A stretch of DNA of 34,612 nt from Cytauxzoon felis (lineage: Eukaryota; Apicomplexa; Aconoidasida; Piroplasmida; Theileriidae). The stretch lies in contig JAIQCW010000023.1 of the NCBI GenBank assembly GCA_020283715.1, positions 1-34,612 on the forward strand. The letters run 5' to 3'. The notes beneath the pieces are model-generated. The model did no database searches. It saw nothing but the letters and a program-made list of their open reading frames with translations, and was not told where the DNA came from. The position numbers were made by a program, and so were the translations under genes. Shown here in pieces: positions 1-29,139 of the stretch. How positions within the stretch are numbered: the stretch's first letter is position 1; each line of letters opens with the position of its first letter.

Positions 1-110
1 CAACATCACCATTATCGCCACGATCTCTGGGAGTGGCTCTACTCTTTAGAGATAGGTAATTAAAAGAGCTGACGGCAGGACCAAGAGAGTTGGATTGGAC
101 CTCAGGTGGA
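1..110 (-). repeat. Modular repeat element cut by the left window edge
   Basis: CGCCACGATCTCTGGGAGTG, TAGAGATAGGTAATT, AGCTGACGGCAGGACC and TTGGACCTCAGGTGG. It lies in the UFD1 intron and is read through in frame by the second exon of the nested fragment until a TAA near 48. Confidence 0.9.
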
Positions 111-1496
111 AAGAGGAATTTTCTTCGTAAAAATTTTCTCCACCTTTGGGTGGTGTTTTGTTTGCCTTTGGTGATTCACTCCCATAGATGTTGAAGGTTG
201 GAATATTGAAATTTATTCTACCGGTTGTGTTACCATCATCTAAAAATGGTTTGTGTTCACCTGGAGTAACGTTGGTAATGTTACTTTCATTTCCACAATG
301 CTTGGGTCTCGTATATGAACCTGTGTGGTCACCATCAGTCTTAATACTTCTGTTATCCTCACTTTTTATAGATTGTCCAGCATTGTCTTGTATTTGCGCT
401 CAAGAGAAATCATAGAAATCATAACTAATTTAAAGGTTAATATAATAACAGATGAATAATTATCATCGAAGATGGAAATTCTATAAAAGTACCCTGTCTC
501 CTTAATTTACCTTCAAACAACTTTTGAGCTTGAGTGCTAATATTAGAAGTACCAGCACTACTATTTGGATCTCCTTTAACGTCTCCTGTTTTTACCCATT
601 TGTTGCCTCTATGATACCATTTATGACTACCAGAGTTAACATATATTAATAATGGTCTATCGATGATAGGATCCTCACCACCAGATTTCTTTTGATAATA
701 TATCCATAATTTATTTGTATTACTAATACTCACACTTCCAGGTAATCCCTTAAGTTCTTTACCAAAGTGCTTATATATAACAGATGCAATAGCTGAACCA
801 GGGCTATGACTATACGCCACATATCCTTGAGGAACTTTATCGGCATCCGTCTCCTTCGCAACAGTAATTTGTATACTATTTGCACCAGTAGTATATTGAC
901 CACTACTTGTTCCTTCAGTATCAGTCTTCTCTATATGAATTACAGTTTGACTATTTGCCTTATCATTAAGTTTATCTAATTCAACTAAAAGAGCATTTTT
1001 ACCCGCAGTGTCAGGATTTCCAGTAATTGTAACTGAAGTCCAATTTCTATTAGTATCTACCCCGGGATTATCGTTACTATAATATTCCCATGAACCACTT
1101 TGTTTATCAATGCGTATAAATAAGGGCCTTTCATCTCCTCGAACCTTGGAATAATATACATGAACAAATTTGACTTCATCGGTAACAGTTATATTATTAC
1201 CACCACTTTGTAGAGTCTGAGCTCCGTTTTTAAGTGTAATACTTTTCATTTTATTATTATCCGTCAAATGATGAGAGTATCTCGTAAAGCCTCCCTTGGG
1301 ATTTCCCGAAAATTCCAAGACTGTAACATTTTCAGTGCTGCTAGAAACAGTACTCGTATAATTCGTCTTCTCGTCAATTTTTATGTCAACATTATTTGTA
1401 CTAGTTTCTGCTTTAATAGTAGGTAATGATGGTCCCAATAAATTCATAGCATTCAATTGATCCCACGTCCATAATGCGCCAGTGAGAAATATAATC
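48..1496 (-). CDS. Tpr-related surface/membrane protein fragment nested in UFD1 intron (partial)
   Basis: Two exons are visible. The first runs from about 1496 (acceptor AG at 1498-1497) to 493, followed by a 94-bp intron (donor GT at 492-491, acceptor AG at 400-399). The second runs from 398 down to about 48 and ends by reading into a repeat. The protein starts with the membrane-like stretch TGALWTWDQLNAM, which aligns with the mid-protein helix SAIWWTVDIGWDMYN of the complete Tpr gene at 12671. Two tandem beta-rich units of about 150 residues follow, each with a GY/FxxYSH motif, a VYYxK...RPLLI strand and a WYxxxxxW end. Exon 2 has a KHC...GEHKPFLD motif shared with the nested gene in SSRP1. 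No upstream start codon or N-terminal half is found, so this is a 5'-truncated copy or internal exons. It lies on the same strand as UFD1. Function is unknown; an exposed loop of a membrane protein is inferred. Confidence 0.6.
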
Positions 1497-1509
1497 CTAT
1501 TGCAGACAA

Positions 1510-1760
1510 CATTCCACTCGAAGTCCATCCTGCCGTCAGCTCTTCCATCTGAGGTCCATCTTTTCCATTGCATGGAGCCTCTTATATTTACTTCCCCTTC
1601 CAGCTCCCGGAGATCGCTTCCAGGTAGTCCACCCGATGTCCAATCCACTACACTTCGGCCACGATCTCTGGGAGTGGCTTTACCCTTCAGGGATAGGTAA
1701 TTGAAAGAGGCCTCCACGGCAAGTGGAACGGATGTGGATTGGACATCAAGTGTACTGTAA
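1510..1760 (-). repeat. Modular repeat element upstream of the nested fragment in the UFD1 intron
   Basis: Includes the CCATTGCATGG palindrome, arm CAGCTCCCGGAGATCGCTTC, hairpin CCACGATCTCTGGGAGTGG, TTCAGGGATAGGTAATTG and GTGGATTGGACATC. An open frame on the minus strand runs through it into the Tpr-related exon. Confidence 0.9.
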
Positions 1761-1856
1761 CGTTTATGGATAATAATCATGTAATAGAGAATATATATAA
1801 TTGTATTATCCATCATCCATCCCGTAGATTATCATCAGTATAATATATAAACTTAC

Positions 1857-2558
1857 TTGAGATTAAGGTTGTTCATCATCCATTTGGGTATGAAAATGAA
1901 TCCTTCTTGTGCTCTAAAATCTAATGATGAGCATGCTATCCTTTCTTTATGGCTTTCATCTATATGAATGATTATATAAAATTATGATCTTTTTTTATAT
2001 ACCTATTGTAAAATAATCATCATTTGTAGACAAGGTTATATTATTTGGCTTATCATTATATTCATTTATTCTATGGACTTTTTGTATTATGAATTGCCAA
2101 GGCACTTGTGTATTTGTATCCATTAATCTTATTAATATACTTTCTGGTAATGATACTTTATCACTATTTGTTATTTTAACTAATTTTCCATCTTTAGTTC
2201 TATTTAATCCACCAGATCTTGAGAATTCTTCACTATATTCTAATACAATTAAAAATCTATCATTAATATTATTTTCAGCTAATAGATTATTAACATCATT
2301 TATATACATTTCAATCTATATGTATAGAGGATATTAGAATTTTATTAAGAAGAGTTATAATACCTTGGCATGATCAATAACATTTTTAAATTTATTAAAT
2401 ATAATATTAATTAAAGAATTATGATTAATATTCCATTTTATTGTATTTATTAGAGGTATATTTAATAGACGATGGTTATTCCATATTAGAGCATATGTAT
2501 TTATAATTATTGCGATTATTATAATATAAATAAAGAGAAGATTAATACATTTATACAT
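1857..2558 (-). CDS. UFD1-like protein with N-terminal leader, probably apicoplast-targeted (5' part)
   Basis: Exons 2558-2364, 2315-2003 and 1959-1857 join in phase; the donor GTAAGT at 1856 opens a large intron that runs off the left edge. The product starts with a hydrophobic signal (MYKCINLLFIYIIIIAIIIN) and a basic, Asn-rich stretch, then the UFD1 fold: KLVKITNSDKVSLPESILIRL matches the family 'GGKIxxPPSALDxL', and LDFRAQEGFIFIPKWMMNNL matches '[21 protein letters not shown]'. UFD1 works with CDC48 and NPL4 to extract ubiquitylated proteins. A copy with a bipartite leader is known in apicomplexans as part of the symbiont-derived ERAD-like import machinery of the apicoplast, so that location is inferred. 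It is divergently transcribed from the transporter at 2817 across 258 bp. The remaining exons lie outside the window, beyond the inserted Tpr-related segment. Confidence 0.82.
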
Positions 2559-2816
2559 TTCTAAAGGCTACATTTTAAAAATTTTTTTTCTGAATGGTTT
2601 TTATATACATATATCAATACTAAAGTATTATAGTGTAGGGAGGTATAGATGGAGGTATAGTTGTATGGATGATGGATGGATGTATGGATGATGAATGTGA
2701 TGTAATAGATATAAATTGTTGGTATAATATAAAATTGAAAATGTATACATTGTGAATATAATTAAAAGGGAAAAAAATTTTAGGTGTATATATAAAATAG
2801 ATAATATTTTCATACA
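2559..2816. promoter_or_regulatory. Divergent intergenic region between UFD1-like gene and UAA transporter
   Basis: This is 258 bp of strongly AT-rich sequence between two start codons pointing away from each other, so it must hold both promoters and 5' leaders. It contains runs of GATGGATGGATG-type repeats around 2650-2700. No defined motif was recognised. Confidence 0.45.
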
Positions 2817-3818
2817 ATGAAGACTAATAACTTCAATAATGATTATAAATTAATAAAATTATATTCATATATTAAAGGTATAGGATTAATATTAGGTATA
2901 TATTGTTGTTTTTTATCATTTGGTTATTTATTAGAAAGATTAATGAAATATAGTTATAATAAACATATTAGTTATAATTATCCTATATTTTTAGTATCTA
3001 TATTATCATGTTCAAATTTAATAATAAGTTCATTATTAATATTATTTAATAAATATTATTATAATAAAGATAAGAGTATGTTATGTATATTAAATATTAA
3101 TATTATATTAAGATTAATATTATCATCTATATTCTTATTAACAGCACAAATTACTTCTACATATGCATTATCGCATGTTGGTGTACCAACACAAATTATT
3201 ATTAAAAGTGCTAAAATGGTACCTATATTAATAGGTGGTTTTATATTATTTAATAAAAGATATCCATGGTATGATTATATTGCTGTATTATCTATTACAT
3301 TATCATTAATATTTTTTAATTGGGATAGTATTATTAATTCTAATAATAATTATAATACTAAATTAGGTATATTCTTATGCTTTATATCATTATTCTGTGA
3401 TGGATTAATAGGACCTATACAAGATGATGTCTTATCAAAATATGATATACATCCATATGTATTAATGTTTATAACTAATTCTGTATCATTACCATTATCT
3501 ATTATCATATGTCTAATTACAGAAGGTCTACAACCAATCACTACATTATATAATAATATACAATTAATCAAAATTATCATCATACTCATCATTACTGGTA
3601 GTCTAGGACATTTATTCATCTTCTCATCTGTAAAATTCTATGGTAGTCTATATACTGGCGTTATTACCACTCTAAGAAAAGTATTTAGTACTATTCTATC
3701 AGTCTATATCTTCAATCATAAATTGTCCAAAATTCAATGGATCACAATCACTATAACATTCACAACCATTTTTCTACAACAATACTTTCGTAACCAGAAT
3801 AAAGTCAAGAGAAGATGA
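2817..3818 (+). CDS. SLC35B1/UAA-family nucleotide-sugar (or ADP/ATP) transporter, ER
   Basis: A single-exon protein of 333 residues with about ten hydrophobic segments. Family signatures are clear: LSHVGVPTQIIIKSAKMVPI followed by FNKRYPWYDYIAVL matches 'YPTQVLxKSCKPIPVMxxG...KKYPxxxYxxV' of UAA transporters, and GHLFIFSSVKFYGSLYTGVI then TTLRKVFSTILSV matches the 'G..FIF..V..FGPL..S.ITTTRKFFTIL' block. SLC35B1-like carriers sit in the ER membrane and exchange nucleotide sugars or adenine nucleotides; the substrate cannot be told from sequence. The C-terminus (KVKRR) is a basic tail that could act as an ER-retrieval signal. The length is typical of the family. It is one of the few genes here with neither introns nor repeat insertions. 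Confidence 0.88.
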   Translation: MKTNNFNNDYKLIKLYSYIKGIGLILGIYCCFLSFGYLLERLMKYSYNKHISYNYPIFLVSILSCSNLIISSLLILFNKYYYNKDKSMLCILNINIILRLILSSIFLLTAQITSTYALSHVGVPTQIIIKSAKMVPILIGGFILFNKRYPWYDYIAVLSITLSLIFFNWDSIINSNNNYNTKLGIFLCFISLFCDGLIGPIQDDVLSKYDIHPYVLMFITNSVSLPLSIIICLITEGLQPITTLYNNIQLIKIIIILIITGSLGHLFIFSSVKFYGSLYTGVITTLRKVFSTILSVYIFNHKLSKIQWITITITFTTIFLQQYFRNQNKVKRR

Positions 3819-3879
3819 CTGTAGTCTATTATAATTAATCTATTACCCATTTATATATATATACACTTGTATGAATGAA

Positions 3880-4236: not shown

Positions 4237-4357
4237 CAAAGGAACGGAACATCGGACAATGTATAACATGTATAAATGAAAAAGTAAATTATTAAATCTA
4301 GTAAAAGGTATATACATTATATAAACTTCATGGCTCTAGAATTATTATATAAATTCA

Positions 4358-10612: not shown

Positions 10613-12022
10613 ATGGCTATAAAGAAAATTAAAAGAATTAATAAATCACAAATAGAAACAATAGAACCACAATATAAAAAACCAATTCTATGTATGCTCT
10701 CATCTAATCATAATAATGATACCAAATTATTATTAAAAAATCTTTATCAAATCTGTAAATTAAATAGTATATTCCGTATCAATAAAACTAATAATTATAA
10801 TTGGAAAGATGAAAATCTTAAATTAAATATCAATCAAAAAAATCATATCTTAGCTGAATCCATATGTAATAAATTATCATGTGGTCTATATATTATCGGT
10901 AATTCTAATAAAAAAGACCAATCAATATAGGATTCGGTAGAATATATAATGGAACAATATTAGATTGTTGCCAATTAAAAGTTATAAAATTCAAATCTAT
11001 GGAATCATTCAATACTAAAGGTATTTATACATTTTTTTTAGCTTTTTTTTCATATATTAATACTAATTTTCGTCTATATATACCATATTTATCAATTATT
11101 TTATATTCTTTAACCATAGGTGCTGTCACATTTAATTCAAGACCATTAATCATAGCACAAGGAGCAGAATTCGGTCAAGATTCTGGACCTTTAAACACAG
11201 TACGTAATATACTACTCGATATCTTTAGAGGACCAACGTTTCCAAAACTCTCATTAAATAATATCGAACATGTCATCGTATTAACACTACTAGATCATGA
11301 AGCTGATCTAAGAAATAATCATACAACAAACACCTCTCCACCCGAGGTCCAATCCACCTCTCCTTCTCTTGCAGAGAGCTCTTCCAATTACCTATCCCTG
11401 AAGGGTAGAGCCACTCCCGGAGATCGTGGCGGTGAGAAGGGCAGTGATGGATCATCCATCATAGGAATGATGGAAGATGGTGCTAAGGATGTAGTGGATT
11501 GGACCTCAAGTGGAATACCTGGAAGCGATCGCCGGGAGCTGGAAGGGGAAGTAAATGGAGAAGCTGTCTGCAAGACGACGAAAGTTGGAGAAGATAATAA
11601 TGTAACCTCAAGTGCAGGTGTAGATATTGATGTATCATGTTTCAATTCATCTACATCGATTAGAGAGTATCCAAAGTTATTATTTCGACGTTATTCTATA
11701 AGACTATTGAAGAGTACAGGAGGTATTAATGAGAAAGTTCCATCCGTGAAATTGGATGAAATTGGTCCATCGATAGACTTTGAGATTGAGGAGGTGATGA
11801 TAGCAGATGATGAAAAGTTCAAGGCAGCAACTTCGGTTGTTAAAAAAACCTCATAAACTTGTAGCAGGTGTTGATGATGATAAGAAAAGGGTACCTACAA
11901 AGAGGAAGAATGTCCATAGTACTATTATGGGTAACTTAGAAGGTAGAGTATATGTTAATAGACAAGACATTAATAAATTATATACACCTCACACTAAAAA
12001 GAAGAGGAAATTAAAATCATAA
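10613..12022 (+). CDS. RPF2: Ribosome production factor 2 (Brix domain) with in-frame repeat insertion; two homopolymer frame breaks
   Basis: Exon 1 is 10613-11020, exon 2 is 11120-12022 (99-bp intron). RPF2 landmarks: GNSNKK then RPINIGFGRIYNG (family 'GSHSKKRPNNLVIGRMFD'), LLDIFRGPTFPKLSLN ('DFFRGPxxxxINL'), LLFRRYSIRLLKSTGG, VKLDEIGPSIDFEI ('ELEEIGPSLDF') and a basic tail with GRVYVNRQDINKL. RPF2 with RRS1 brings the 5S RNP into pre-60S particles. The frame must slip at A-run 10910-10915 (one base short) and A-run 11842-11848 (one base extra). Between residues TTNT and AGVDID, about 95 codons derive from the repeat element (11330-11620), open in frame with no usable splice pair that keeps the frame. 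They fall in a loop between conserved Brix strands. Confidence 0.87.
11330..11620 (+). repeat. Modular repeat element inside the RPF2 coding sequence
   Basis: Runs from CCACCCGAGGTCC to GTAACCTCAAGTG and includes all main modules. Translated in the host frame it starts PPEVQSTS and carries [17 protein letters not shown] and RRELEGEVN, the same peptide frame as the coding insertions in the secreted protein and CTU2. Confidence 0.92.
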
Positions 12023-12085: not shown

Positions 12086-15000
12086 ATGGAACCTGTAGTC
12101 TACTGGGAAAAACAGGACCCAAATACAAAAATGTGTGCCTTACATTGTTTAAATGCATTATTACAGGTAATTTCTACATATTTCTTATATAGATACTGTT
12201 TTTCTTAGGGACCCGTCTTCACAGAAGCCGAATTGTGTGAAATCTCACTCATGCTTGACTCCAGGGAAAACGAATTACTCAATATAAACGGTACGTTTAT
12301 ACATTTAGATAACTCTCTACTCGAGGTCTAATCCAACTCTCTTTCTCTTGCAGAGAGCTCTCCGCCTAGGTCTATCCTGCCGTCAGCTCTTCCAATTACT
12401 TCCCCGTACACGGTATAGCCACTCCCGGAGATCGTGGCGATGAAGAAGATGTAGTGATAGGACCTCAAGTGGAACCCGTAGCTGATCTCAGGGAAGCGTA
12501 GGGGGAGGTAAACAGATGAAGCCTCCACGGCGAGTGGAAGAAGAGTGGATTTGACCTCAGGTGGAATGGAGAGTGAATAGACTTCAGGATATTATTTACT
12601 TGAAATAATGGGATGGGGATAATTTGGATGAAAATGTTTGTTGTAAGAATATAGATAGAACACTTAGACAATGGTTGGACCTGGACCTGATGATGAATTT
12701 GCTAAGGTCCAAGGCAAGATTTCCATGTTCATCGCCGGATTTATTATGTTAACACCGCATAGAATCGCCATGACTTGTGCTCCTCATATATTGAAACGTT
12801 ATCATCTCCCTCCAGATGTTGTTGGACTCTTCATTTATAAAATCCATACTCCGATGGAGTTGTATAATGTGTTGGGACAATATATAGCAAATATTGTAGC
12901 ATGGATAGTTAGAATAGAACCACTTAATGCTCCTAGGTGGATTTATAGAGGATTCTCTATTGTATCCGTCTGGTTAATGTTTATATCTGGGATTCTATCA
13001 TATGTATTATTTAAATCTGGTGATGATTATGGTAAATTCAATGAATTCTTCTGGAGTGTCATCTTCATGACCTTTACCAATGGGTTATATTGTGCTTCAA
13101 CTTTTAAATTGGAAGGTTTCCTGGCTTCAATGTATGGTGCTGGTGTCCCTTCTTCCGGGTTCTTTACATTTTTCCTCCATAAAATATGCGAATGGTTATC
13201 CGTCAGATTTGATTGGGAGGATTTTGATAGAAGCATATTAAAGGTCCAATTTTGGGTCACTATATTAACACTAGGCCTATCTGCAATTTGGTGGACAGTG
13301 GATATTGGATGGGATATGTACAATACTGAAACAGATACAAGCACTAATCCTAAACGTGGTTTCGGTACAAAAAAATATCAATCTGGTGATAATCCTGATC
13401 AATCTAAAGAAACTCCTAATAAGGGTATTCTGAGATTATTTACTAATGGCAGTACATCTGATGCTAAAGATGTCGGCCATATTTATGACTGGTCGCCTAT
13501 ACTTATGTTGGCTTCATCATTGGGGACGGTTTATTTTTTCTATCCTTCCATCAGCCCATATCAACTCGTTGAGGATGATATTATGGGCAAACGTATTGAT
13601 TTATGGGTCCTATTCACTGCCGCCATACCGAATTTTGCGGTAGCTCTGCTGGATTTAATTGGAAATGATGCCGGTCCCAGTGAAAAATCATGGAACCAAA
13701 AAAATTCTAAGTGGTGGCAATTGTCATGGTTAGCTATAATACCTTATTTATTATGTATATTTATTTTTCTATCATTCATGCATTATCCGGATGGATTTTT
13801 TGGTAGGCATATGAGGAGTAAAAATTGGCTTGTGTATATCATCTGTATAACATTTAATTTCTTCCAAGAGTGGTTAGAATCTATCGGATTCGCAGGAGCA
13901 GGGGCACAAATACAACCCGATGCAGAGCAATGCGCTAGTGCAGGTGAAACTAAACCGTTTGATGTTGGTGGTAAAGCTGCTGGTAAAATAAATTCCGCTA
14001 AAGGTGCATTCAACGATGATATTGCTGCTTTTAATGTATTACTAACGATTACTATTGTGAACATATCAATGTTTGTGGATATAGGGTTATTTTCCCCCAT
14101 TTTTAATTTTATGGTGCTTGGTTGCAATCAACTTTTATTGTCTATATGATAATATATCTATTATTATAGGTAGTCGTAATGATACAGAGAGATTATTAGG
14201 TTTTAGAAATGTATCCGAATCGGGTCATTTTAATGTAACAGTTTGTTGACTGTTTATTATTTCCCCATCTTATTATTTATTTAAAGGTGTTGGAGAATGC
14301 ATTATTAAGGCGTGGTATATCGTGTGAATATTGTTCAATAAATAAATTAGAAGTATATTTCAGGTATTTTTATATATAATTATACCCATTCAATCTTAAT
14401 CAGATTGAATTCTATCGGATTCATCTGTAATATTCAAGCACACTGGTTCTGCCTCAGAAAACTTATCGATGATAAATGGTAAGCACAATAATACATCAAT
14501 ACATCTCCATTCCCTCTTCCATTGTTCCACTCGAGGTTCAATCCTACTCTTTTCGTCCTGCAGACAGCTCTTCCACCGAGGTCCAATCCGACTCTCCTTC
14601 CACTCGCCGTGGAGGCTTCTTCCAATTACCTATCTCTAAAGAGTATAGCCACTCCCGGAGATCGTGGCGGTGAGAAGTTAGTGATTGGACCTCAAGTGGA
14701 ACCTGGAAGCGATCTACGGGAGCTGGAAGGGGAAGTAAAAGGAAGAGGCCACCACGGCGAGTGGAAGACATCAGGTGGAATGAAGAGTAGGATTGGACCT
14801 CGAGTGGAGCGTCGAGATGAGGATGTTTTATAATATTCATTATGATAATTAGGTTTATATTGGATAGTATGAAGAGTGGTCCAATGAGTGTTGATTCAGA
14901 ATGGACGTATAATTATCTTACTGATATAATTAAAAATGAAAAGGGTGTAATATTCAGTGTTATACCAATTAATAATAATCAAACATTACCCATCGCTAAA

Positions 15001-16102
15001 CAATCACCATTTATAAAATTACAACCACATCAATTCTACCTCACATTATCAGAAATCAATGGTACGTATACATAAACACATTATCATATATATCCAGAAC
15101 GACTCAAAGATTCTGACGACTATGAAGTACGTTACACAAACATATATATGAAAACAACACCGTTATACAACGATGAATCATACCATTCCTATCTTCCAAC
15201 TCTACTCCATTCACCGTTCCACTCGAGGTCCAATCCACCTTTTTTTCGCCTTGCAGGCAGCTCTCCACCTGAGGTTACAACCAGTGTTCCACTCGCCGTG
15301 GAGGCCTCTTCTATTTACCTATCTCTAAAGAGTAGAGCCAATCCCAGAGATCGTGGCAGTGAGGAAGTTAGTGAATATGACCTCAAGTGGAAGACCCGAG
15401 AACGATCTACGGGAGTTTGAGGGGGAAATAAATAGAGAAGCTGACGGTAGGACCTCGAGTGGAGCCTCCACGGCGAGTGGGAAGACATCGAGTGGAAGAG
15501 CTGACGGCAGGATTAGACCTCAGGTGTAGTAGACAACATTTCGTTATTGTGTTATTCAATATATATATTATAGGAGCCGAGATCATTTCTGTATAAGAAC
15601 GGTACGAACCATTCTAAACCTGTTGTATGGCCAACTACTGGTGGAGTGTATGTTTAAATATATATATGAGATCAATTCATTTATATAGACGTTTAGATCA
15701 AGTATTGGAAGATAATCAAAATATTGACCCCATTGATGATAATGATGGAATTAAACTTGCTGTACGATTAGATGATGGTAGAGTTACAAAAAATTTCAAA
15801 CCCAATACACAAATAACACAAATTTTCCATTGGATTGAAGAGAAATCAAATAAAGATCTTAAAACATTAGATTTCTATTTTCTCATTCATACTGCACATA
15901 ATCAAAAGTATATTAAATATTGTAATGGTTCTATTGAACTCATTAATAATCAACAGGTATGTTGGAATTATATGTGATGATATGATGTACAATTTATATG
16001 ATCTTCATCAAACTTCTATAGTGTCCTATAGATGTGACTGACAAGACATTAAAAGAATTGGATTTTGCATCGCATGATATGTTGATATTACATTTAAGTT
16101 AA
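12086..16102 (+). CDS. Ataxin-3-like Josephin deubiquitinase with C-terminal UBX-like domain
   Basis: Ten exons: 12086-12166, 12209-12290, 14170-14240, 14287-14363, 14404-14478, 14853-15061, 15098-15126, 15574-15647, 15689-15956, 16022-16102; total 1047 nt, 348 residues. The Josephin domain has the catalytic Cys17 (KMCALHCLNALLQ, human LCAQHCLNNLLQ), His117 (CNIQAHWFCLRKL, human CNYKEHWFTVRKL) and, where human ataxin-3 has Asn134 (WFNLN), Asp133 (WFILD). From about residue 250 a UBX/ubiquitin-like domain follows (IKLAVRLDDGRVTKNFKPN ... KTLKELDFASHDMLILHLS). The Josephin-plus-Ubl layout is known from Plasmodium ataxin-3. Intron 2 (1879 bp) contains a repeat element and a complete Tpr gene; introns 5 and 7 carry further elements; the other introns are 36-65 bp. 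The stop overlaps the stop of the converging EF-hand gene. Confidence 0.92.
12307..12580 (+). repeat. Modular repeat element in ataxin-3 intron 2
   Basis: Lies just upstream of the nested Tpr gene. Contains CTACTCGAGGTC, the hairpin CTCCCGGAGATCGTGGC, the arm CCCGTAGCTGATCTCAGGG and CCACGGCGAGTGG, ending with GACCTCAGGTGG. Confidence 0.9.
12671..14149 (+). CDS. Tpr-family multi-pass membrane protein, complete, nested in ataxin-3 intron 2
   Basis: Intronless, 492 residues, about nine to ten hydrophobic segments (for example near residues 15-35, 95-115, 193-213, 275-293, 308-328, 355-378, 390-415 and 465-490). It shares SSLGTVYFFYPSISPYQLV, WLAIIPYLLCIFIF, MHYPDGFFGRHMRS and FQEWLESIGFAGAGAQ with the other Tpr-related sequences in this window. 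I recognise this C-terminal half as the Tpr/Tar family of Theileria; transport or surface roles are not established. The hydrophilic loop between the two membrane halves is only about 55 residues here, whereas the copy in SSRP1 carries over 700 in the same place. The stop codon lies only 20 bp before the host splice acceptor at 14169. Same strand as the host. Transcription from its own promoter or as part of the host pre-mRNA cannot be decided from sequence. Confidence 0.85.
   Translation: MVGPGPDDEFAKVQGKISMFIAGFIMLTPHRIAMTCAPHILKRYHLPPDVVGLFIYKIHTPMELYNVLGQYIANIVAWIVRIEPLNAPRWIYRGFSIVSVWLMFISGILSYVLFKSGDDYGKFNEFFWSVIFMTFTNGLYCASTFKLEGFLASMYGAGVPSSGFFTFFLHKICEWLSVRFDWEDFDRSILKVQFWVTILTLGLSAIWWTVDIGWDMYNTETDTSTNPKRGFGTKKYQSGDNPDQSKETPNKGILRLFTNGSTSDAKDVGHIYDWSPILMLASSLGTVYFFYPSISPYQLVEDDIMGKRIDLWVLFTAAIPNFAVALLDLIGNDAGPSEKSWNQKNSKWWQLSWLAIIPYLLCIFIFLSFMHYPDGFFGRHMRSKNWLVYIICITFNFFQEWLESIGFAGAGAQIQPDAEQCASAGETKPFDVGGKAAGKINSAKGAFNDDIAAFNVLLTITIVNISMFVDIGLFSPIFNFMVLGCNQLLLSI
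14526..14812 (+). repeat. Modular fold-back repeat in ataxin-3 intron 5
   Basis: Left CCACTCGCCGTGGAGG... and right ...CCACCACGGCGAGTGG face each other as inverted repeats. Between them lie TTACCTATCTCTAAAGAG, CTCCCGGAGATCGTGGC and the CGATCTACGGGAGCTGGAAG arm. This is one of the clearest full-length copies. Confidence 0.92.
15199..15530 (+). repeat. Modular repeat element in ataxin-3 intron 7
   Basis: Hinge CCACTCGAGGTCCAATCC at the left and GACCTCAGGTG at the right. Includes CCACTCGCCGTGGAGGC, the CCCAGAGATCGTGGC variant of the hairpin, and the GAACGATCTACGGGAGTTTG arm variant. Confidence 0.9.
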
Positions 16103-16718: not shown

Positions 16719-18941
16719 CTATACACTCGTTCCAGAAATTTGCTCTGCTTCAGCAGACGCTATTATACGACCACAAACGTCGACAAGTTGAGAATTTATA
16801 AAGGTTAAAATCATAGCCATCAAGTCTATATTGCCACTATTGGCCAATTTTAATGATATTACGTGCTTTACCTTGTCAAATTGCTCCTTGAATTGGGCTG
16901 ATATCATTATCAATCTTGCAACCTCACTGCTTGCATCACCCAGTAAAATCCCACCAGCCTTCATAATCTCACCAGGTAAGTCGCTAACAACTCCCAGTGG
17001 AGTAGTTTTAACGTCACCACCGTGAGATGAGTCTTCTGTCTTGGCTTCAGTACTGTCGGTTGCTAGAGTTTTCGTAGGTTTAGTAAGGATTTGATCATAT
17101 TTACTAGTCAATGCGTCCTTAAATTTACCAAATAAGCCCCTCTTCTTCTTTTTATCCTTCTTTTTCTTGCCCTTGACATCAGTATCTGAGGTATTGTCAT
17201 CATCATTCTTACCATCTTCAGTTCCGTCTTTCTCTTCTACAGTTGAGGTCTTCCACTCGCCGTGGAGGCTTTCCTTATTTACTTCTCCCTCCGCTTCCCT
17301 GAGATCAGCTACGGGTTCCACTTGAGGTCCAGTACTATTATTCATTCCACTTCCATCTACACCTCCATCTTCGCCACGATCTCCGGGAGTGGCATTACCC
17401 TTCAGGGATAGGTAATTGGAAGAGCTGTCTGCAGGACCAACGGTGGAGTCGAGTGGAACAGTGGTTGTAACCTCAGGTGGAGATCTGTCTTCAAAACCTT
17501 CGGTAGATGGATGTTCTTCATCATGATGACTTTTACTTTGAGGTAATTTATATCTTGGTGCCACTTTAGGTGGTGTAAGTTCAATACCGTATTCTTCTGG
17601 TGCTGATGCTTTAGAAGGTAGTGCTGGGTAGAGTCTATCATCCATACCATCACCACTGGTCGCTTCCTCATATGTTGGTAACTTTACAAGTTCACCATCT
17701 ATATATTCATACCCCTTTGGTACTTTATAATGTACATTTACTATACGTGGCGCTGTGGAATTATCGATGGTGGGTTCTTTCCTTGTATTCGTCACTTGGA
17801 TTCTATAACTTCCATTTTTTAGAATCCTCTGTATATCGTCATACAACTCCCTCACCTCCGCTACTATTGTAAAACTCGATTGCTTACTTGCATAATTCCA
17901 TTTGTATTTCGTTTCTATCTGATCTTTTAGCTCCTTCAACTTATTATACGTCTCCATAACTTTGCTGTAGCCTTGTTCTGGCTTCTTAGCTACGTATAAA
18001 CCCAATTCATTGACCTTATCCAATAATTTCTTCACCTCTGACAATGACTTCTTGATATCCTTCGCGTTATTTATTGATGTCTCCTTTAAATTTTTCATTG
18101 TATCCCTATATGACGCGCATTTTTCGTACAATTCATTAATAGCATTTAAATCAATTTTAAAGAACCCTTTAAATTTAGCCTCATCTAATGATACTAATGC
18201 CTTTGTTGTAATCGATTCAACCTCATTATGATCAAATACTATTCTATCTGATGATTCCATAGCCTCAATTGATGACTTCATAGATAATATATGAGCTTCA
18301 GCCGATTTAGACAACACTTCTAATAAATATCTATACGCTACTAAACGACTTGTAGCATGCTCCAACTTTTTTACAGGACCATTCATCTGCTTATTATACT
18401 CCTTCAAATACTCCAACATCTCCTTCAAACGATCATGTGAATTTAATATCATCGATACAGATTTTTTAGCACCACTTACAATCACTTTAGGTTGTACTGC
18501 ATGTCTTTCAAAATCCTTCTTCAATTTACCATTATACTTTGTAGATTGACTATACTCCTTCTTAGCCTTTGATGTATACGCCAATATATTCTGTAATAAT
18601 GAGCTTATACTGTCTCTAACTTCGATCTGATCATCCACATATTTCTGTACAGTCGATATATAAGACTTCAATGATGAATCCTTTAAATAGGGCACCAGGT
18701 TATTAAATGCATTGTCAAAATCCTTCAATGATTTCTTACCCATCAATTCACTTATTTCCGACACCTCCAATATCTCATTATAAACCTTCTTCTGCTCAAT
18801 TATAGAATCACCAGCCTTCTTTATAGTAAATGGTGATATGATATCAACATCCACTGCATCGTCGGGTGTACCATATGAAAATTCATGTAAACTAACAACA
18901 ACTAGAGTACATAATACATTTAAATACATAGAGTTTGCCAT
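16719..18941 (-). CDS. Large secreted coiled-coil protein with in-frame repeat insertion, function unknown
   Basis: A single exon of 740 residues. The N-terminus (MANSMYLNVLCTLVVVSLHE) is a signal peptide. Residues about 40-380 are charged and helical with many heptad-like stretches (SVSMILNSHDRLKEMLEYLK, KSLSEVKKLLDKVNELGLYV), suggesting coiled coil. A Pro-rich, acidic middle (about 390-480, including LPTYEEATSGDG) leads into roughly residues 473-567, which are translated repeat element ([36 protein letters not shown]). A KKKKDKKKKR basic patch follows, then a helical C-terminal domain. No membrane anchor or known domain is recognised. A secreted piroplasm protein acting at the parasite surface or in the host is an inference only. 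The repeat sits in the low-complexity linker, where an insertion would be tolerated. Confidence 0.8.
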   Translation of the reverse strand: MANSMYLNVLCTLVVVSLHEFSYGTPDDAVDVDIISPFTIKKAGDSIIEQKKVYNEILEVSEISELMGKKSLKDFDNAFNNLVPYLKDSSLKSYISTVQKYVDDQIEVRDSISSLLQNILAYTSKAKKEYSQSTKYNGKLKKDFERHAVQPKVIVSGAKKSVSMILNSHDRLKEMLEYLKEYNKQMNGPVKKLEHATSRLVAYRYLLEVLSKSAEAHILSMKSSIEAMESSDRIVFDHNEVESITTKALVSLDEAKFKGFFKIDLNAINELYEKCASYRDTMKNLKETSINNAKDIKKSLSEVKKLLDKVNELGLYVAKKPEQGYSKVMETYNKLKELKDQIETKYKWNYASKQSSFTIVAEVRELYDDIQRILKNGSYRIQVTNTRKEPTIDNSTAPRIVNVHYKVPKGYEYIDGELVKLPTYEEATSGDGMDDRLYPALPSKASAPEEYGIELTPPKVAPRYKLPQSKSHHDEEHPSTEGFEDRSPPEVTTTVPLDSTVGPADSSSNYLSLKGNATPGDRGEDGGVDGSGMNNSTGPQVEPVADLREAEGEVNKESLHGEWKTSTVEEKDGTEDGKNDDDNTSDTDVKGKKKKDKKKKRGLFGKFKDALTSKYDQILTKPTKTLATDSTEAKTEDSSHGGDVKTTPLGVVSDLPGEIMKAGGILLGDASSEVARLIMISAQFKEQFDKVKHVISLKLANSGNIDLMAMILTFINSQLVDVCGRIIASAEAEQISGTSV
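17235..17500 (-). repeat. Modular repeat element inside the secreted-protein coding sequence
   Basis: Hinge TCCACCTGAGGTTAC at the host-5' end, hairpin GCCACGATCTCCGGGAGTGG, arm TTCCCTGAGATCAGCTACGG and CCACTCGCCGTGGAGGC. Read in the host frame it gives the same peptide modules as the RPF2 insertion. Confidence 0.92.
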
Positions 18942-19299
18942 TTTTAATAAAAAATTATATATCTATCAACTAATCTCAAAGATTATTATACCGGTAAATG
19001 GAACTCCGGTGAAAAGACCATTAAAATTACAGCTATTTTACAGATATTAAAACCTTATAAAGTATAGATTTATGATATTTTATATACAATCAATTGAAAT
19101 TTATATAATTTCTATACCAATATAGATGTATGGACGTCTAGAATATCTCCGATTCAAATTTTCCATTTTCAGATCCATGTGGCGAAGTCACGTATTAAAT
19201 GCTATATAAGAAGTAAAATGATGTAATTATTAAGCGAATAGAATATGTATGCTGATTTTGATCTGTAGAAATTCCATTGTTGCAATGAAAATCTAGACA
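18942..19299. other. Intergenic, AT-rich, no feature seen
   Basis: About 360 bp upstream of the secreted-protein start. It should include that gene's promoter and 5' leader. No repeat module and no supported exon. Confidence 0.5.
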
Positions 19300-20515
19300 G
19301 ATGGTATATATGGGATGAAAAATAACCATGAAGCGTGATATATTGCATACCATCTAGCACTAGGATCTTCTTGAGGACCACTTTCTGGTTTAGGTTTTCT
19401 CATCCAAAGCCTACTAAATGTTGAACATGCACATGAATTTTCGAAAAGACAAATATGGGGTTGAAGACTATTGTTCCATTCATAGTTGGGTAATTTTATA
19501 CGCGAGAAATCAGACTTTTATAATGTAAATGAAGGGATATAAGGAATGAAGTAGTTAATTGGAATGAACAACATGAATATTGGGGACCAGTGTATTCTAT
19601 TATAATCATTAAATACATTATTTTCACCAATACCAAATAGTAGAGCAAGACCAGAATCATTACGTTTAGTATCACTTAAATTTTCTGCTAATGGAGTATA
19701 ACCTGGATCACCAGCAAGTCCACCGCTAATTGTACCGAGTTGAGTTGCAAGATTTTGTTCAATTGTGTTACCATTTGATCCACCGGGTCTTATATTTTGA
19801 AAAGTATTATTTGTATCTTTCAACCATGAATAGACTTTAGTGGAGCTATTATACGTCCGCTTATACCATATATTGTTATCAGGAACATCTTTATTACTTT
19901 TAGTGTGGTAAATACAGAGGCTCTAGAATGTTTATAATAATTATATCCTTCAACAGGTGTACCACCACTAGGATTTTCTTCTACATTAATTTGTTTAGCG
20001 GCAATCTCAGTTAAACCATAATTACCACTCTGTTTCTCCAATTTAATCTCAACATCATCTTTAATTGTAGTCAATAGATTACCAAAACCAGTAGGAGCAT
20101 TACTTTCCGTATATTCTGTCCAATTACTCGTCTGTTGTGTAACATCTTCTTTATAAAATATCTTCGCCTCACTAGAGGTTTTAACCTTTAAAGCACCTTT
20201 AGGACTCTTTACATAATAATACACTTCATAGACATCTGAAATAGAATTAATTACACCTTGTAATGTAGCAGTTCTACCACCATTCTTTATTGTTCTGTTC
20301 AATGTAAATGGTCCTCCATTTAGTAATGTATGGATGTAGAATTGGAAAGTATTACTGGGACTAGCGGTAAAGCTTGCATCCTAATACCTAACTTTCACAT
20401 TATTACTTCCATCTTGATAAGTTCTAGTTTCACCTTCAGTAAGAGTTGTGCCTTCATTAATCTTCAATTGAATTTCTGGTGGTGTTGACCCTCCACTTCC
20501 CCCACAATTTTACAT
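19300..20515 (-). pseudogene. Degenerate Tpr-related gene
   Basis: Read on the minus strand from about 20515, the sequence is a clear paralogue of the nested gene 26135-23880: FYIHTLLNGGPFTLNRTIKN, SDVYEVYYY, ATQLGTISGG then PGYTPLAENLSDTKRND, IHWSPIFMLF and, further down, ARWYAIYHASWLFFIPYIPS (near 19350). The frame is broken by an in-frame TAG at about 20383, a shift at about 19820 and an early stop after RIHWSPIFML..., and the membrane part is collapsed. No homopolymer explains these breaks. The N-terminal half is missing, as in the two nested truncated copies. Unlike the other copies it has no modular repeat next to it. Confidence 0.8.
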
Positions 20516-22925: not shown

Positions 22926-25900
22926 TTACTTGTCCTCTTCTTCACCACCTTCCTCTGAACTCTCATCTTCATCGTCTTCAAATTCCTCGTCATCTTCATC
23001 CTCATCATCCAATTGATTCTCATTCATTAGTGTACGAGATGGTTTAGATAAGTCATCCTGATTCTTAATCTTTATATTCTTAGATTGCAAATACGCCGTC
23101 AAATGCTTAAGGATGTTATGATGAAATATAAAATTTAACACACCTGAAATTCAGCCTTGTCTATATTAGTAAATTCATACTCCAAATCACCCCTTAATGA
23201 TATCAAAATTGTAAAGAAACGATTCTGTGATACGACACCAGTACGTGAAAATTCAATCGTAACCACATCCTCAAATCTAATTTTAATATTATGTAATATT
23301 CCATTATACTAGAAGCTCCTCCACCCGAGATCCAATCCAATTCTTCTTCCACTAGCCGTTCCACTTGAGGTCGTCTTGCAGACAGCTTCTCCACCTGAGG
23401 TCTTTCCACTAGGCGTGGAGCCCTCTTCCAATTACCTATCTCTAAAGAGTAGAGCCACTCCCAGAGATCGTGGCAGTGAGAAGTATAGTACTGGACCTCA
23501 GGTGGACTACCCGAGAGCGATCTCTGGGAGCTTGAGGGGGAAGTAAAAGGAAGAGCTGTCTGCAAGACGAAGAGAGTTGGATTGGACTTCAGGTGGAAAT
23601 TCATCGTGTAGACATATACCTGATGAAAATAACGGGTTTGACGATGAATAGGAATGATCGATTGAGTGGGAATAGATGTCCTGAGGTGGCTTTATATGTG
23701 CATGAAACAGCCTATGATGGTTATGATTGTTTAATATTTTAAATATTTACCGATTCTCCTTTATCGGATTTAAAATCTCCTGGTACTACAATTGAACGAT
23801 TTACCAAAGCACCAAATAAACGTGTTACTATATTATATGTTTTACCTGTAAATATTATTATATATGAAATTTTTATTTTTTATAATCCGTAATAAATGGG
23901 GATAATTATCCCCATTTTCTCAATGATACAATTTTTGTATAAGTCATTAAATAATGACATGACCATGAAATCTACAATCGACATATCATACATGTAAAAT
24001 GTGATGACAACTAGAAACATAAATCCAAATATTGTTCCATCATCATCATTAAAAGTATCTCCACATCTACCACTCACTTGTGCACCCATACCACCTCCAA
24101 ATCCAACAGCTTCCATAAATTCTTGTACCCAAGCGAATACTACACATAGAACTCCAGTTCTAAATACACTTGCCCTGAAGTATTTACCAATGCGCCCATC
24201 AGGAAAATGCATCATGGAGAAGAAGATGTAAATACATATTATATAGGGTATGAAAAATAACCATGTCAAATGATAGAGTGCATACCATTTATAATCTTCA
24301 CATTCATATATGTAACAACAACCTCTTTCACTCTTACAACAGCAACATTTATCACATCTTTGTTCACTCGTCGGACATGTACATTGTGTACAATTAGTTT
24401 CAGTTTTACAAGCACATTGACAAGCGTCATCCTTACAACAACAACATTTACATCTTTGAGTATCTTCTTCACTACATGTACATGTGCAAGGTTCTGAACA
24501 TGGCTCCCCATTTACACAACAAAAGCAACATTTGTTCTCATCACAGACTTTAAACTCCACATTTATGTGACACACTTGACAGATTATTGTAATTATCAAT
24601 TTTATTACAATCTCGCAATTCTTCTTGATGCAAGAACATATGCGTATGATAATGTTGCGATCTTTAATACATACTACGCACTTTTTACAGCAGCAACAGC
24701 AGGTTTGGTTTTTACAGCAATTATCATCACCACTCTCAGCCTCACATGAACAAGTTCCAGAATTTTTGCAGCTTTTACAACAACAACAACATTTACCACA
24801 TTTGGGGTCTTGATTTTCAGTACATGTACATGTGCAATTAGAACCAGTTTTACAACAGTCACTACAGTTACATGAATCCTTTTTCTTCCATTTTTGCCTC
24901 CAAGTCCTGCCAGGGCCTTTGTCACAAAGTTGAGTTATGGCAAATGCTATATGGGGTGTAGCAGAAATAGCCTGGATCCATAATTCAATCTTTTTACCAT
25001 CAAAAGGATCATCAACTAATTGGTAGGGTGATATCGCAGGGTAGAAGAAATAGACTGTACCTAATGAAAGGGCTACCAAAAATATTGGTGACCAGTGTAT
25101 TATATTATATTCAGTATCAGTAAATAGTTTAGCAATGCCCAACTCGGGTTTACTTTTCATTGTATCACTTAAATTGGGTACTGATGGAGTATAACCTGTA
25201 TCGGGAGGATTTTCAAGTGCAGTTTTAATATTTTGGAGTTGGGTTGCAAGGTTTCCGCTAATATTATTTGGATTATCAGTAGCAGTAAATTTGGTACTGT
25301 CTACTTGCCATGTATTGCCTGAGGTAGCACTGTAGGTACGTTTATACCATTTATTATTTTGATTAGCATTACCATCTTGAGATAAACATATTAAATATGG
25401 CTTTTGAAGCTTATCATCACCCGTTTTCGCAAAATATACAAATAAACCTCCTCCAGAACTAGGCGTAAATCCATCTCCATTCACGTCAGAAATATCCTCT
25501 ATGGGTTTATTATGTATTTTAATGCGATTTATACTGTTTCCAGAACCAATATCATGCTTAAAACCTCTAAAAGTGGGAGTAGCACCTTGTTCCTGTACTA
25601 CTGTAACAGTAATTGGTTTATTACAGCCATATTTAGCAGTCTTCTCCAATTTAATCTCATACTGCTTTTTAATTTTATCAACAAGATTTAGAAGATCATT
25701 ATCAGCACTGGTCACGGGTTCTTTTGCTTGATTTTTCCATTCAGTATTGTCACCAACGTTTGTCTTATAAAATATCTTCTCACCATTCATAGCCTTAATC
25801 TTTAAAGCTCCACTAGTACCAGTGCTCTGCTTATAATAATACACTTCATAGACATTCGAAATAGAATTTCCACCTTGTAATGGAGCAGTATTAGTATCAT

Positions 25901-28900
25901 CATACTTTATTCTATTGCTCAATGTAAACTTCCCTCCACTTAGTAATGTATGGATGTAGAATTCGAAATTACCACCAACGGGAACATTAGTCATTTTGGT
26001 AACTTTCATCGTGCCACTACTATAAGTTGCAGTTTCACCTACAGCAGAAGGTGTTTGATGAATTTCCAGTGTAATTGTTGTTGATGTTGATCCTGCTCCA
26101 CCTACAGTATTTTTAGTACTTTCAATAATTTGCATCAGTTCATTAATGTTCGATTGAAAAAATGTATAATTATCGTCCTGCAGTCAGTTCTCTATCTGTT
26201 ATCCACAACTCCTGAGATCGTGGAAATTCAGTATTAAATTATTTCTACCAGATGTACTTCTGCCATCTAAAAATGGTTTATGTTCACCAACAGTATCAAC
26301 TTCAGCATCTTTACCTTGAGGAGGATGATCATCAGCAGATTCTTTATCACAATGTTTGCATAACATGTTCACATTTTAAATCAGAAAAAGCACCCTGTCT
26401 TTCTAATATATCATTAAGCTTAGAAGCAATTTTTTTACCATCAGCACCAGTCTTCGCTGGTAGACTTGTTGATGCATCTACAGTTAGTTTCGAATGGTGT
26501 TCCCACTTCTTACCCTTACCATACCAATTATTATTACTGCTCTGTTGATAATATAAAAGTAGAGGTGTGTTACAGTTGGTATCATTTGCTTCATAAAATA
26601 TCCATACTCTCTTATTAGCTTCAATAGTTATATTACCAGGAAACCCTTTCAACAATTCACCATTATGTCTAAATTTAACATTGGTAAGTTGTGCTCCTGG
26701 ATCATGACTATATGCCACATATCCTGTAGGGACATTGCTGCCTCCCTGAGCAACAGTAATTGTTGTATTACCTTGAGAACCAGTTTTATAAATCTTATTA
26801 CTACCACTACCAGCGATTGTGCCACTTGTAGGGGTTTTCTCTATATGAATTACATCCTTCTGAATAGCTTGATCATTAAGTTTATCGAGATGCATTAAGA
26901 ATGTGTGATTAGAATTCCCAGGAGCTCCACTAATACCATTTTCTTGAGGCCAATTTATACTATCAGCATTAGTAGGATCATTATTTCTATAATATTTCCA
27001 TGAACAACTACCATTATTATCCTTACAAATGGCTATCAATAACGGTTTATCATTATTATTTCCTCCAAAATATACATATACATAATTGACATTCCCATTA
27101 ACACTTATACTAGTTATTTCCTTAGTATTATTTTTAAATGTACGTCCAGTGTCACTAATCTTCCTATATTCACCATCCTTACCGCCCTTCACCTTATGCA
27201 TGTAACGCTTAAATCCATTCTTGGGCTCATTATTATTCAAAAAGACTTTAACATTACCTTCTGCAATATTAGAAGCAGTTTTATCCCGTCCATTACTTGG
27301 GTCATAACCATCTCCCTTCTTATCAATTCGTATTATAACATCAGAAGCATTATTAGTATCTGGAGTAGTTAGATCATCATCTCTATCAGTTGAAACTGGT
27401 TTCTTGGTCATTTCATTATATTGATCCCAAGTCCATAATGCACCGGTGGACTTGTATCTTGTGTCAAATCAACTTGAATATCAATGAGACTACTTCATAA
27501 CCCGAAGCTGATCTCAGGGAAGCGGAGGGGGAGGTAATTGGAAGAGGTGTCTGCAAGACCAACGATGGAGGCGAGTGGAAAAGGTGAAGGTATAAATTGG
27601 ACCTCAAGTAGAAGTGGATGAAGGAAAGTTGTAATAGAATTTCTAGGATGATCTCAGATTGTAGAATTATGGTTTTTATGATATGAATTTCAACGTACCG
27701 ATCATTGTTTTATCGAGTTTGGCTTGTTTGAGTTCATTTTCATCCATATTGACATCGATTTGGATTTCATCTTCGGTATCGAATTGCATAACAATATATG
27801 GATAACGTGTTTGACCATGTTTCATTGGTTGATTTAATCCAAGTATAAAATTAATATGTGGTGAATTTGGTTTTGAAACTAGAAACATTCTTATTATATT
27901 CGTAAATAATAATGTATAATCATATGATTTCCCATGTAATTTTATATTTTTTTTTGTAAATTCAATCTCATATCTACCCCTTGGTACTATCAATGGTATA
28001 TCCATTAATAACGCTATCTTCTCACTCTTCATCTCATCCAATCCAGACTTTAATAAAAATGTCTATAAAATGTTAATAGTAAAATTAAAAATAATATTGT
28101 GGGGATCATGGGGATAAAAAACACCATTTCCACTCGAGGTCCAATCCAACTCTCCTTGTCTTGCAGACAGCTCTTCACTTGAGGTCTATCTTTTCCATTG
28201 CATGGAGCCTTCTCTATTTACTTCCCCCTCAAACTCCCGTAGATCGTTCTCGGGTAGTCCACTTGAGGTCATGTATTCAATATCGCCACGATCTCCGGGA
28301 GTGGCTTTACTCTTTAGAGATAGGTAATTAAAAGAGCTGTCTGCAAGACGACCTACGGTGGAGTGTTCACAGTGTTCATTTGAGTGTTGTTATTGTTTTT
28401 TTTGTGTATGAAAACATACTTGTTTAAGATCTTCGAGTTGGATTTCGACATCATCTGGATCGTTTTTATTTGGTGGTAGGCAGAATCTGATTTCGACTAG
28501 ATTATCTGAGTTTATAACATTATTTGATTTGAGTTCAATGGCTAAATCAGTTTTTGATGGTACAGATGCTTGACTGATAGAATTTGAATCGATTTCTAAT
28601 CCACTACTATTATTAATTTTCAATTTGAATGTTTTATTTTCAAAATCATAAGTACCCCAATGCCATCCAGATGATGATACTTGTTCAATATGTGCTGTTA
28701 AATTATAATGTGTTTCTATATGTTTCTTTAAATCAGACATCATCTATAAATTGATATGAGGTATTAAATGTTAGAGTATGATAAGATACCTTTTCTGTAA
28801 AGCCATCAAATCTTAAGACTTTATATTCTTTAGCTTCATTTAATTCTACTCTCAATTGATAAGTATCTAAAATTATAAAGATGAAATGAAAATTAATATT

Positions 28901-29139
28901 TCTTAAATCAATATACTCGAGCTTGTCTTTACAAAGGTTGTTGTTAAGATATCATTAGATCGGAATTGCATAACATCACCAGTACGTTTATTTTTCCATC
29001 CAAATAGTTCTGTAGACACTTTGAATGAGCCCTGAAAAAAAAAGAAGTTAAATTAAAGTATTAAAAAAATACATACAAAATCCGGAACATCTGGACCTTT
29101 AATATTTCCAAATGATGATATGCTAGCCAATGTAGACAT
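22926..29139 (-). CDS. SSRP1: FACT complex subunit SSRP1/POB3 (split by a nested Tpr-related gene)
   Basis: Eight exons: 29139-29077, 29031-28917, 28866-28790, 28743-28420, 28062-27699, 23845-23751, 23308-23144, 23105-22926; total 1383 nt, 460 residues. Landmarks: TELFGWKNKRTGDVMQF, YKVLRFDGFTEK, SGWHWGTYDFENKTFKL, LVEIRFCLPPNKNDPDD ('EVRFYVPP'), VPRGRYEIEFTKKNIKLHGK, LNQPMKHGQTRYPYIVMQF, ALVNRSIVVPGDFKSDKGES, and a very acidic C-terminus (EDDEDESSEEGGEEEDK). There is no HMG box, as in yeast Pob3. FACT moves H2A-H2B during transcription and replication. Intron 5 is about 3.85 kb (27698-23846) and holds a Tpr-related gene; introns 4 and 6 (about 357 and 442 bp) carry repeat elements; the remaining introns are 38-50 bp. 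Confidence 0.95.
23313..23598 (+). repeat. Modular repeat element in SSRP1 intron 6
   Basis: Starts CTCCACCCGAGATCC and ends GACTTCAGGTGG. Includes CTTGCAGACAGC, TTACCTATCTCTAAAGAG, the hairpin CTCCCAGAGATCGTGGC and the GCGATCTCTGGGAGCTTGAG arm. Antisense to SSRP1; its left edge lies about 5 bp from the splice acceptor. Confidence 0.9.
23880..27450 (-). CDS. Tpr-related membrane protein with giant beta-rich and Cys-rich loops, nested in SSRP1 intron 5
   Basis: Three coding blocks on the host strand. 27450-26347 starts TGALWTWDQYNEMTKK (matching the mid helix of the complete Tpr) and carries two beta-rich units. About 26340-26230 reads CKHCDKES ... GEHKPFLDGRSTSG. 26135-23880 (751 residues from its ATG, with a possible exon start just upstream after CTGCAG) adds two more units, then the Tpr membrane region LSLGTVYFFYPAISPYQLV, ATPHIAFAITQL, WYALYHLTWLFFIPYIICIY, MHFPDGRIGKYFRA and FMEAVGFGGGMGAQVS. 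Between TWRQKW and YKWYALYH sits an insert of about 195 residues (residues 415-612) with close to 60 cysteines, including several CCCC and CCCCC runs. The N-terminal membrane half is absent. Splice joints between blocks are uncertain. Frames are long and intact, so it is probably functional or recently lost. Confidence 0.7.
26175..26232 (+). repeat. Short eroded repeat remnant between exons of the nested Tpr-related gene
   Basis: TCGTCCTGCAGTCAGTTCTC followed by CAACTCCTGAGATCGTGGAA matches the CTGCAGACAGCTC and CTCCCGGAGATCGTGGC modules with several changes. The CTGCAG on the minus strand sits exactly where the next coding block could take its splice acceptor. Confidence 0.65.
27497..27612 (+). 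repeat. Partial repeat at the upstream boundary of the nested gene in SSRP1
   Basis: Contains AGCTGATCTCAGGGAAGCGG, GGTAATTGGAAGAG, GTCTGCAAGACC and ATTGGACCTCAAG. It lies between SSRP1 exon 5 and the first nested coding block, only about 50 bp upstream of that block. Confidence 0.85.
28128..28372 (-). repeat. Modular repeat element in SSRP1 intron 4
   Basis: Hinge CCACTCGAGGTCCAATCC, CTTGCAGACAGCTC, the palindromic CCATTGCATGG module, arm ACTCCCGTAGATCGTTCTCG, hairpin GCCACGATCTCCGGGAGTGG and TAGAGATAGGTAATT. The 20 bp just before it, GGGATAAAAAACACCATTTC, recurs inverted at about 7357-7376 beside another cluster. Confidence 0.92.

Follow-up and report, generated by a model that had tools for sequence, protein, structure and literature searches.

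Unrelated housekeeping genes carry Tpr-like genes in their introns, each resolved copy lying on the host strand

The Tpr/Tar family of Theileria comprises a locus array together with dispersed genes, and its T. parva members are recognized by a conserved C-terminal block of 245 aa, about five C-terminal transmembrane helices, a single exon and membership in a large multigene family (Palmateer et al. 2023, PMC10730637). In this study, contig C16 of a genome of 8.62 Mb in 181 contigs was analyzed over its entire 34,612 bases (hereafter the window), in which genes that we take to be members of this family are nested in introns of ataxin-3, SSRP1 and, probably, UFD1, next to modular repeats and, in the ataxin-3 case, downstream of a 34-bp element. 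Like the described Theileria family, they form a large single-exon family, both clustered and dispersed, of putative membrane proteins that probably share a conserved C-terminal part and have undergone species-specific expansions, but, unlike the genes described there, many of them are nested in housekeeping-gene introns (PMC10730637, whose main text contains neither the word "intron" nor the word "nested"). No report of Tpr or other families nested in Theileria introns was found in open-access titles and the starts of abstracts, most subscription papers being outside this scope.

Animals, too, have whole genes within the introns of genes unrelated to them, which arose when duplicates were inserted. 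There, simple nested pairs are on opposite strands in 220 of 296 human cases (74%, with 76 on the same strand) and in 193 of 248 mouse cases, and same-strand nested genes are thought to be purged owing to interference between the two transcription units (PMC8467205). In contrast to these animal pairs, the nested copies reported here are on the host strand in 17 of 17 hosts and all belong to one gene family. Introners likewise place repetitive elements in many introns of one genome, whereas the introns studied here additionally hold a protein-coding gene preceded by an element of its own (PMC9860276). Upstream motifs specific to a family have been reported for T. parva multigene families, among which SVSP and TpHN are named ("tpr" is absent from the main text); the 34-bp element resembles these motifs in being family-specific but differs in that it appears to move with the gene into introns (PMC4761415). 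In the re-annotation of T. parva, numerous loci overlap on the same strand and read coverage equals or exceeds the coding mean in 872 introns (PMC7126163), so that unannotated nesting is conceivable there.

The presence of one family in 14 to 17 unrelated genes of a compact genome, on the host strand in each resolved case, offers a natural test system for the way in which two genes on the same strand share a piece of DNA. In genome annotations of the clade, Tpr and housekeeping genes may be fused, split or overlooked; the 34-bp element provides a recognizable upstream signature for finding family members.

Tpr-like copies in the window

An intact single-frame Tpr-like ORF of 492 aa (12671..14149, plus strand) was located within intron 2 of the ataxin-3 (Josephin) gene, a GT..AG intron of 1879 nt in phase 1 (12291..14169, plus strand). 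Exon 2 (12209..12290), which ends in phase 1 with AACG before the intronic gtacgt, and exon 3 (14170..14240) join in phase across the ORF, which is on the host strand. The joined ataxin-3 exons, including exon 1 (12086..12166, with Josephin domain and PDB matches) and exon 4 (14287..14363), all on the plus strand, matched the Pfam Josephin domain at residues 14-164 and human ataxin-3 (PDB 2dos) over residues 5-154 with the junction spanned, confirming the complete gene in this intron that the original prediction had proposed. It is the only complete Tpr copy in the window. On its 5′ side lie a GC-rich modular repeat island (12323..12565, no strand) and the promoter-like 34-bp element (12595..12628, plus strand), which ends 42 nt upstream of the ATG. 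The Tpr stop codon is 20 nt upstream of the host intron end, the DNA shared with paralogues stops about 97 nt upstream of that end, and the region from the Tpr gene to the downstream exon carries no modular repeat. The nearest paralogue is in the Tpr group on contig C147 (80% DNA identity, dS 0.60, dN/dS 0.21).

Intron 5 of SSRP1 (23846..27698, minus strand, 3853 nt) contains two Tpr-like frames, both on the host strand: an N-terminal part (26350..27468, minus strand) resembling the UFD1 fragment described below and a main and C-terminal part (23880..26183, minus strand) resembling the ataxin-3 copy. The stop codon of the latter is 34 nt upstream of the host intron end, and a modular repeat lies on the 5′ side of the copy (27499..27537, no strand). 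Joining exon 5 (27699..28062, minus strand, upstream end approximate) with exon 6 (23755..23845, minus strand, downstream end approximate) gave a match to residues 21-444 of human SSRP1 (PDB 9eh2) of 216 bits that spans the junction. The expectation that host exons join in phase and match known proteins across the junctions was therefore correct for both ataxin-3 and SSRP1, as was the Tpr-like nesting on the SSRP1 strand. The SSRP1 copy is nevertheless not a complete gene, since it has no in-frame start ahead of the conserved part and no 5′ element, and its frame is interrupted at 26184-26349. By eye, a modular-repeat remnant at 26170-26230 apparently breaks this frame.

In UFD1, exons of the N-terminal domain (UFD1_N1; 1853..2177, minus strand) are followed by a modular repeat (1585..1728, no strand) on the 5′ side of a Tpr-like N-terminal fragment (437..1496, minus strand). 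A further reading frame adjoining this fragment at the contig end (46..399, minus strand) is partly modular repeat and has weak Tpr similarity (45% over 40 aa). Contig C16 ends 1.8 kb downstream of UFD1_N1, and the N-terminal half of UFD1 alone is visible in the window. The UFD1_N2 exon was matched on contig C38 (3053-3286, plus strand), the sole such match in the genome besides a separate UFD1 on contig C40; it is preceded on the same strand by a frame-interrupted Tpr-like gene at about 126-2551. The two UFD1 halves combined matched both UFD1_N1 and UFD1_N2. We infer that C16 and C38 are joined as one UFD1 gene around a Tpr-like copy; the predicted nesting would thus hold across the two contigs, with the Tpr piece in the window being a fragment. 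The start of the window UFD1 (about 2400-2560, minus strand) shows, by eye, a hydrophobic stretch like a signal peptide and is distinct from the second UFD1 on C40; the gene may be an organelle-type UFD1.

All three nestings are on the host strand and have a modular repeat at the 5′ border. A fourth Tpr-like stretch (19269..20509, minus strand), broken into several frames, was placed by eye on the ORF map between two different genes, although it could conceivably lie inside an intron of an untranslated region. Since it reads as intergenic, the "three of three" intronic copies originally counted become three of four in the window.

Hosts, strand and the 34-bp element across the genome

Two protein queries for Tpr-like sequences gave 114 and 83 matches (197 in total), which merged into 104 places on 52 contigs, all of these being lower bounds. 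The context was examined for 50 Tpr-like stretches, some with one flank only, and for both flanks of 8 further copies; hosts were sought partly by eye, some regions being read on both strands and others on one, mostly the Tpr strand. The host count leaves out about 20 of the 50 stretches as well as C175 and C86 of the 8 later copies. Both halves were recognized by Pfam, PDB or family coordinates in 14 hosts: ataxin-3, SSRP1, UFD1, APN1, a DEAD-box helicase on contig C85, an ABC transporter, PMS2, AT-1, OLA1, QARS, a RAP-domain protein, a DDX23/PRP28-like helicase, adenylate kinase and CHMP1, the last three coming from the 8 later copies. Three weaker hosts bring the number to 17, namely TMA7, which scored 21.7 bits where the cut-off was 27, COG3, matched in a single half and there below cut-off, and PIG-V, with a Pfam match extending 19 residues beyond the junction at residue 268.

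Matches across the junction reached 242 bits for APN1 (PDB 10nh) and 128 bits for PMS2 in the PDB comparison, where Pfam gave nothing for the right half alone. The C85 helicase was recognized by its DEAD and Helicase_C domains. The PDB comparison gave 138 bits for OLA1, with nothing from Pfam for the joined piece, and 91 bits for CHMP1, with the Snf7 Pfam model below cut-off. Plausible in-phase GT..AG joins were found for about 10 of the 17 hosts, the donor sites chosen for AT-1 and QARS being weak, and the exons of ataxin-3, APN1, OLA1, the RAP-domain gene and others join in phase around a complete nested gene. Three candidate hosts were set aside: MRE11 on contig C37, as its DNA-binding-domain model matched nothing in the genome or the controls; C86, where the same gene is apparent on both sides but without a Pfam match; and C79, where this was apparent by eye only. 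A second Tpr-like DNA match (C4:52927-53112, minus strand) lies between exons of the QARS catalytic domain, and this gene may have two insertions.

The same-strand arrangement expected from the window was observed genome-wide, the Tpr copy being on the host strand in 17/17 hosts and in 14/14 stronger ones (sign test, P value, 1.5 × 10−5 and 1.2 × 10−4, respectively). Compared with the human simple nested pairs, the 14 hosts gave a Fisher P value of 1.4 × 10−8; both tests assume independent sites. Automated strand calls of the flanks, which ignore nesting and in which the unit 12647-15417 was stretched by repeat matches, were two-sided for 15 of the 50 stretches, with 12 sense/sense, 1 antisense/antisense (C20) and 2 mixed (P value = 0.003 for 12 versus 1). 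Seven of the 12 sense/sense stretches are counted hosts (QARS, APN1, SSRP1, COG3, UFD1, C85 helicase, RAP), two (C79 and C146) are unassigned, and three (window 19.3 kb, C94:152k and C162:47k) are flanked by two different genes. The C20 copy was rejected as an antisense nested case because, by eye, it lies beside a different opposite-strand gene and not within one.

Nesting is therefore seen genome-wide, as the earlier reading of placement into introns had it, but introns are not the only sites, many copies reading as intergenic. Copies that read as not nested adjoin genes for ZMAT2, cyclophilin, ferlin, pumilio, RPA1, Sec24 and ATP synthase beta (names by eye). Among the 8 later copies, 3 are nested, those at C94:123k, C172:43k and C29 read as not nested, and the C86 copy is apparently nested and uncounted.

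For the 34-bp element, a matrix was made from an alignment of 26 copies sharing a stretch upstream of the start. Scanning of 225 kb on both strands gave 33 sites of at least 20 bits (the 26 used for the model and 7 that were not), the next score being 12, and all 33 are on the Tpr strand at or shortly upstream of a Tpr ORF. Similar results were obtained with the 8 later copies as a hold-out, each of which has the element (28 to 46 bits; best antisense score in the same flanks, 6.7). When up to 3 mismatches were allowed, a fixed pattern gave 41 matches genome-wide versus one for the reversed control, and 35 of the 41 are followed, 43 to 1371 nt downstream, by a scored Tpr match on the same strand. 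The element accompanies the nested copies in ataxin-3, TMA7, the C85 helicase, COG3, the ABC transporter, PMS2, APN1, AT-1, PIG-V, the RAP-domain gene, OLA1 and UFD1 (on C38) and the later copies in CHMP1, the DDX23-like gene and adenylate kinase; the matrix scan gave no site for the SSRP1 copy, the QARS copy and the window UFD1 fragment. As nested and intergenic copies of the ataxin-3 type share this dedicated element, plain use of the host promoter is disfavored for them, contrary to the suggestion that they borrow host transcription. The element probably initiates transcription, and the nested copies could still borrow the 3′ end of the host.

Modular repeats form 24 islands in the window (1-34612), with a recurring module order and partly inverted ends, and occupy many introns with or without Tpr genes. 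A modular repeat was present within 150 bp upstream of the element at 23 of 30 sites, compared with 19% of random non-Tpr positions, so that the border repeat predicted from the three window nestings is also found genome-wide; the 30 sites are those with at least 250 bp of upstream sequence, which excluded 3 of the 33. A rule of repeat orientation did not explain the strand bias, the orientation of modules relative to the host being mixed in the window. Downstream of the ORF, some copies have 25 to 55 nt past the stop in common (APN1, C33:98k and C79; by eye).

The name Tpr is our presumption, made with the published criteria in view, and is unproven by sequence. A protein search with the 492-aa ORF returned none of 7084 candidates at E 0.001, and Pfam gave no match. 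Simple hydropathy showed 6 strong segments, 4 of them in residues 309-485, to be set beside the roughly five C-terminal helices of the published description. The ORF is one open frame (12671-14149), as expected of a single-exon gene, and its relatives, clustered and dispersed, occupy at least the 104 merged places on 52 contigs. The FAINT domain (PF04385) gave 145 matches over cut-off, compared with none in 14 control genomes, of which those named are prokaryotes. Expanded FAINT domains mark the Theileria/Cytauxzoon group, and the 145 matches therefore place the genome in it.

Among 10 intact ORFs, dN/dS was 0.11-0.30 in the 44 pairs, out of 45, for which dS could be computed. The intact nested copies in ataxin-3, TMA7, APN1 and COG3 gave 0.15-0.19 among themselves and up to 0.29 against other copies. 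A tree built from 28 N-terminal domains requires 9 changes to account for its 11 nested rows, at least 6 of them forced by well-supported branches, and nested copies were no more clustered than shuffled labels; TMA7, PIG-V and COG3 counted as nested in this tree and C79 as other, and the SSRP1, QARS, ABC transporter and 8 later copies were left out.

Explanations for nesting on the host strand

In-phase nesting on the host strand, a family-specific element, a border repeat, scattered origins on the tree and purifying selection in the ORFs were all observed. The explanation we favor, with a probability of about 0.58, is that cassettes made of a modular-repeat border, a promoter-like element of their own and an ORF were scattered into introns repeatedly and kept in the host sense. 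The Tpr-like family would spread as this unit of modular repeat, 34-bp element and single-frame ORF, having landed many times both between genes and within the introns of unrelated ones; the movement would most likely be carried by the modular repeats, through which the DNA would recombine and which are also common in ordinary introns. A nested copy of the ataxin-3 type would be a transcription unit of its own starting at its own element, while the host would splice out the entire Tpr-containing intron. Host-sense copies would persist because an antisense copy would produce RNA against an essential gene and, in addition, because the host could provide the 3′ end for those cassettes that no longer have one of their own.

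Several points weigh against this explanation. Insertion itself is deduced from the present arrangement of the DNA, and selection is a presumed cause of the strand bias. An antisense case could have been missed, since hosts were found partly by eye and several regions were read on the Tpr strand only. Copies facing the 3′ end of a neighbor are common, which weakens a simple collision argument, and in an L1 reporter study sense inserts interfered more than antisense ones, the opposite of what selection would need (PMC3192792). The association of repeats with borders is partly shared ancestry, as paralogous sites are not independent, and pairwise dN/dS may reflect selection before insertion. Six of the 41 genome-wide element matches (on C96, C168, C98 and C121, at C33:14.9k and at C172:8.5k) have no scored Tpr match in their vicinity, their surroundings not being readable, and the element-less SSRP1 and QARS copies and window UFD1 fragment may be dead or reliant on the host.

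The sense orientation would also follow if nested Tpr ORFs were expressed from the host promoter through intron retention or as an alternative last exon, for which host sense is required. The 17/17 same-strand hosts, the stop codons 20 nt (ataxin-3) and 34 nt (SSRP1) ahead of the host intron end, the SSRP1 copy without its own start or element, and the C85 helicase, where one frame of the broken Tpr copy overlaps the host exon and continues into it, are as expected from such expression. We nevertheless regard it as rather improbable, because nested and intergenic ataxin-3-type copies have the same upstream element and, by eye, the phase of ataxin-3 exon 2 is not in frame with the two AG sites just upstream of the Tpr ATG. 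Selection would be unnecessary if the sense were set at insertion, by retroposition at the RNA level into transcribed DNA or by recombination between oriented repeats. Single-frame genes, the lack of an antisense intronic case among resolved copies and a repeat abutting the cassette in 23/30 agree with this account, but the cassettes extend upstream of the ORF, the 18 Tpr ends inspected are not followed by a poly-A tail and the modules in the window have mixed orientations with respect to the host, which makes it a rather doubtful one.

Intronic copies could instead be functionless relics tolerated by introns, as the broken frames in the C85 helicase, ABC transporter, PMS2 and UFD1 copies and the missing start in SSRP1 would suggest; the intact copies in ataxin-3, TMA7, APN1 and COG3, with the low dN/dS given above, speak against this for the set, and we consider it unlikely. 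Misjoining of contigs inside modular repeats is very improbable. The contigs are short, and that of the window starts and ends in repeats; however, in the 17 hosts the two halves belong to the same gene in the correct order and strand, with about 10 plausible in-phase GT..AG joins, whereas chance misjoins would pair different genes, and in ataxin-3 no repeat separates the Tpr gene from the downstream exon. UFD1, lying on two contigs, is not protected by the same-gene argument in the same way.

The scattered cassettes could, tentatively and with odds clearly against it, amount to an antigen library lodged in introns. A large part of a variable membrane-protein repertoire would then sit inside introns of essential genes, always in the host sense, with the host sheltering each copy from loss or silencing and supplying its 3′ end, and with the portable promoter switching on each copy individually.

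Modular repeats in reading frames and at other borders

GC-rich modular repeats were also observed in frame inside long ORFs, at 11337-11589 and 17249-17421 of the window, in the PIG-V gene on contig C33 and in the C85 helicase. These in-frame repeats may be translated, and they are somewhat like the palindromic elements of Rickettsia. A separate repeat of 211 nt occurs twice in the window (29497-29707 and 32855-33065); the two copies are 79% identical and have half-modules of the repeat family at their borders.

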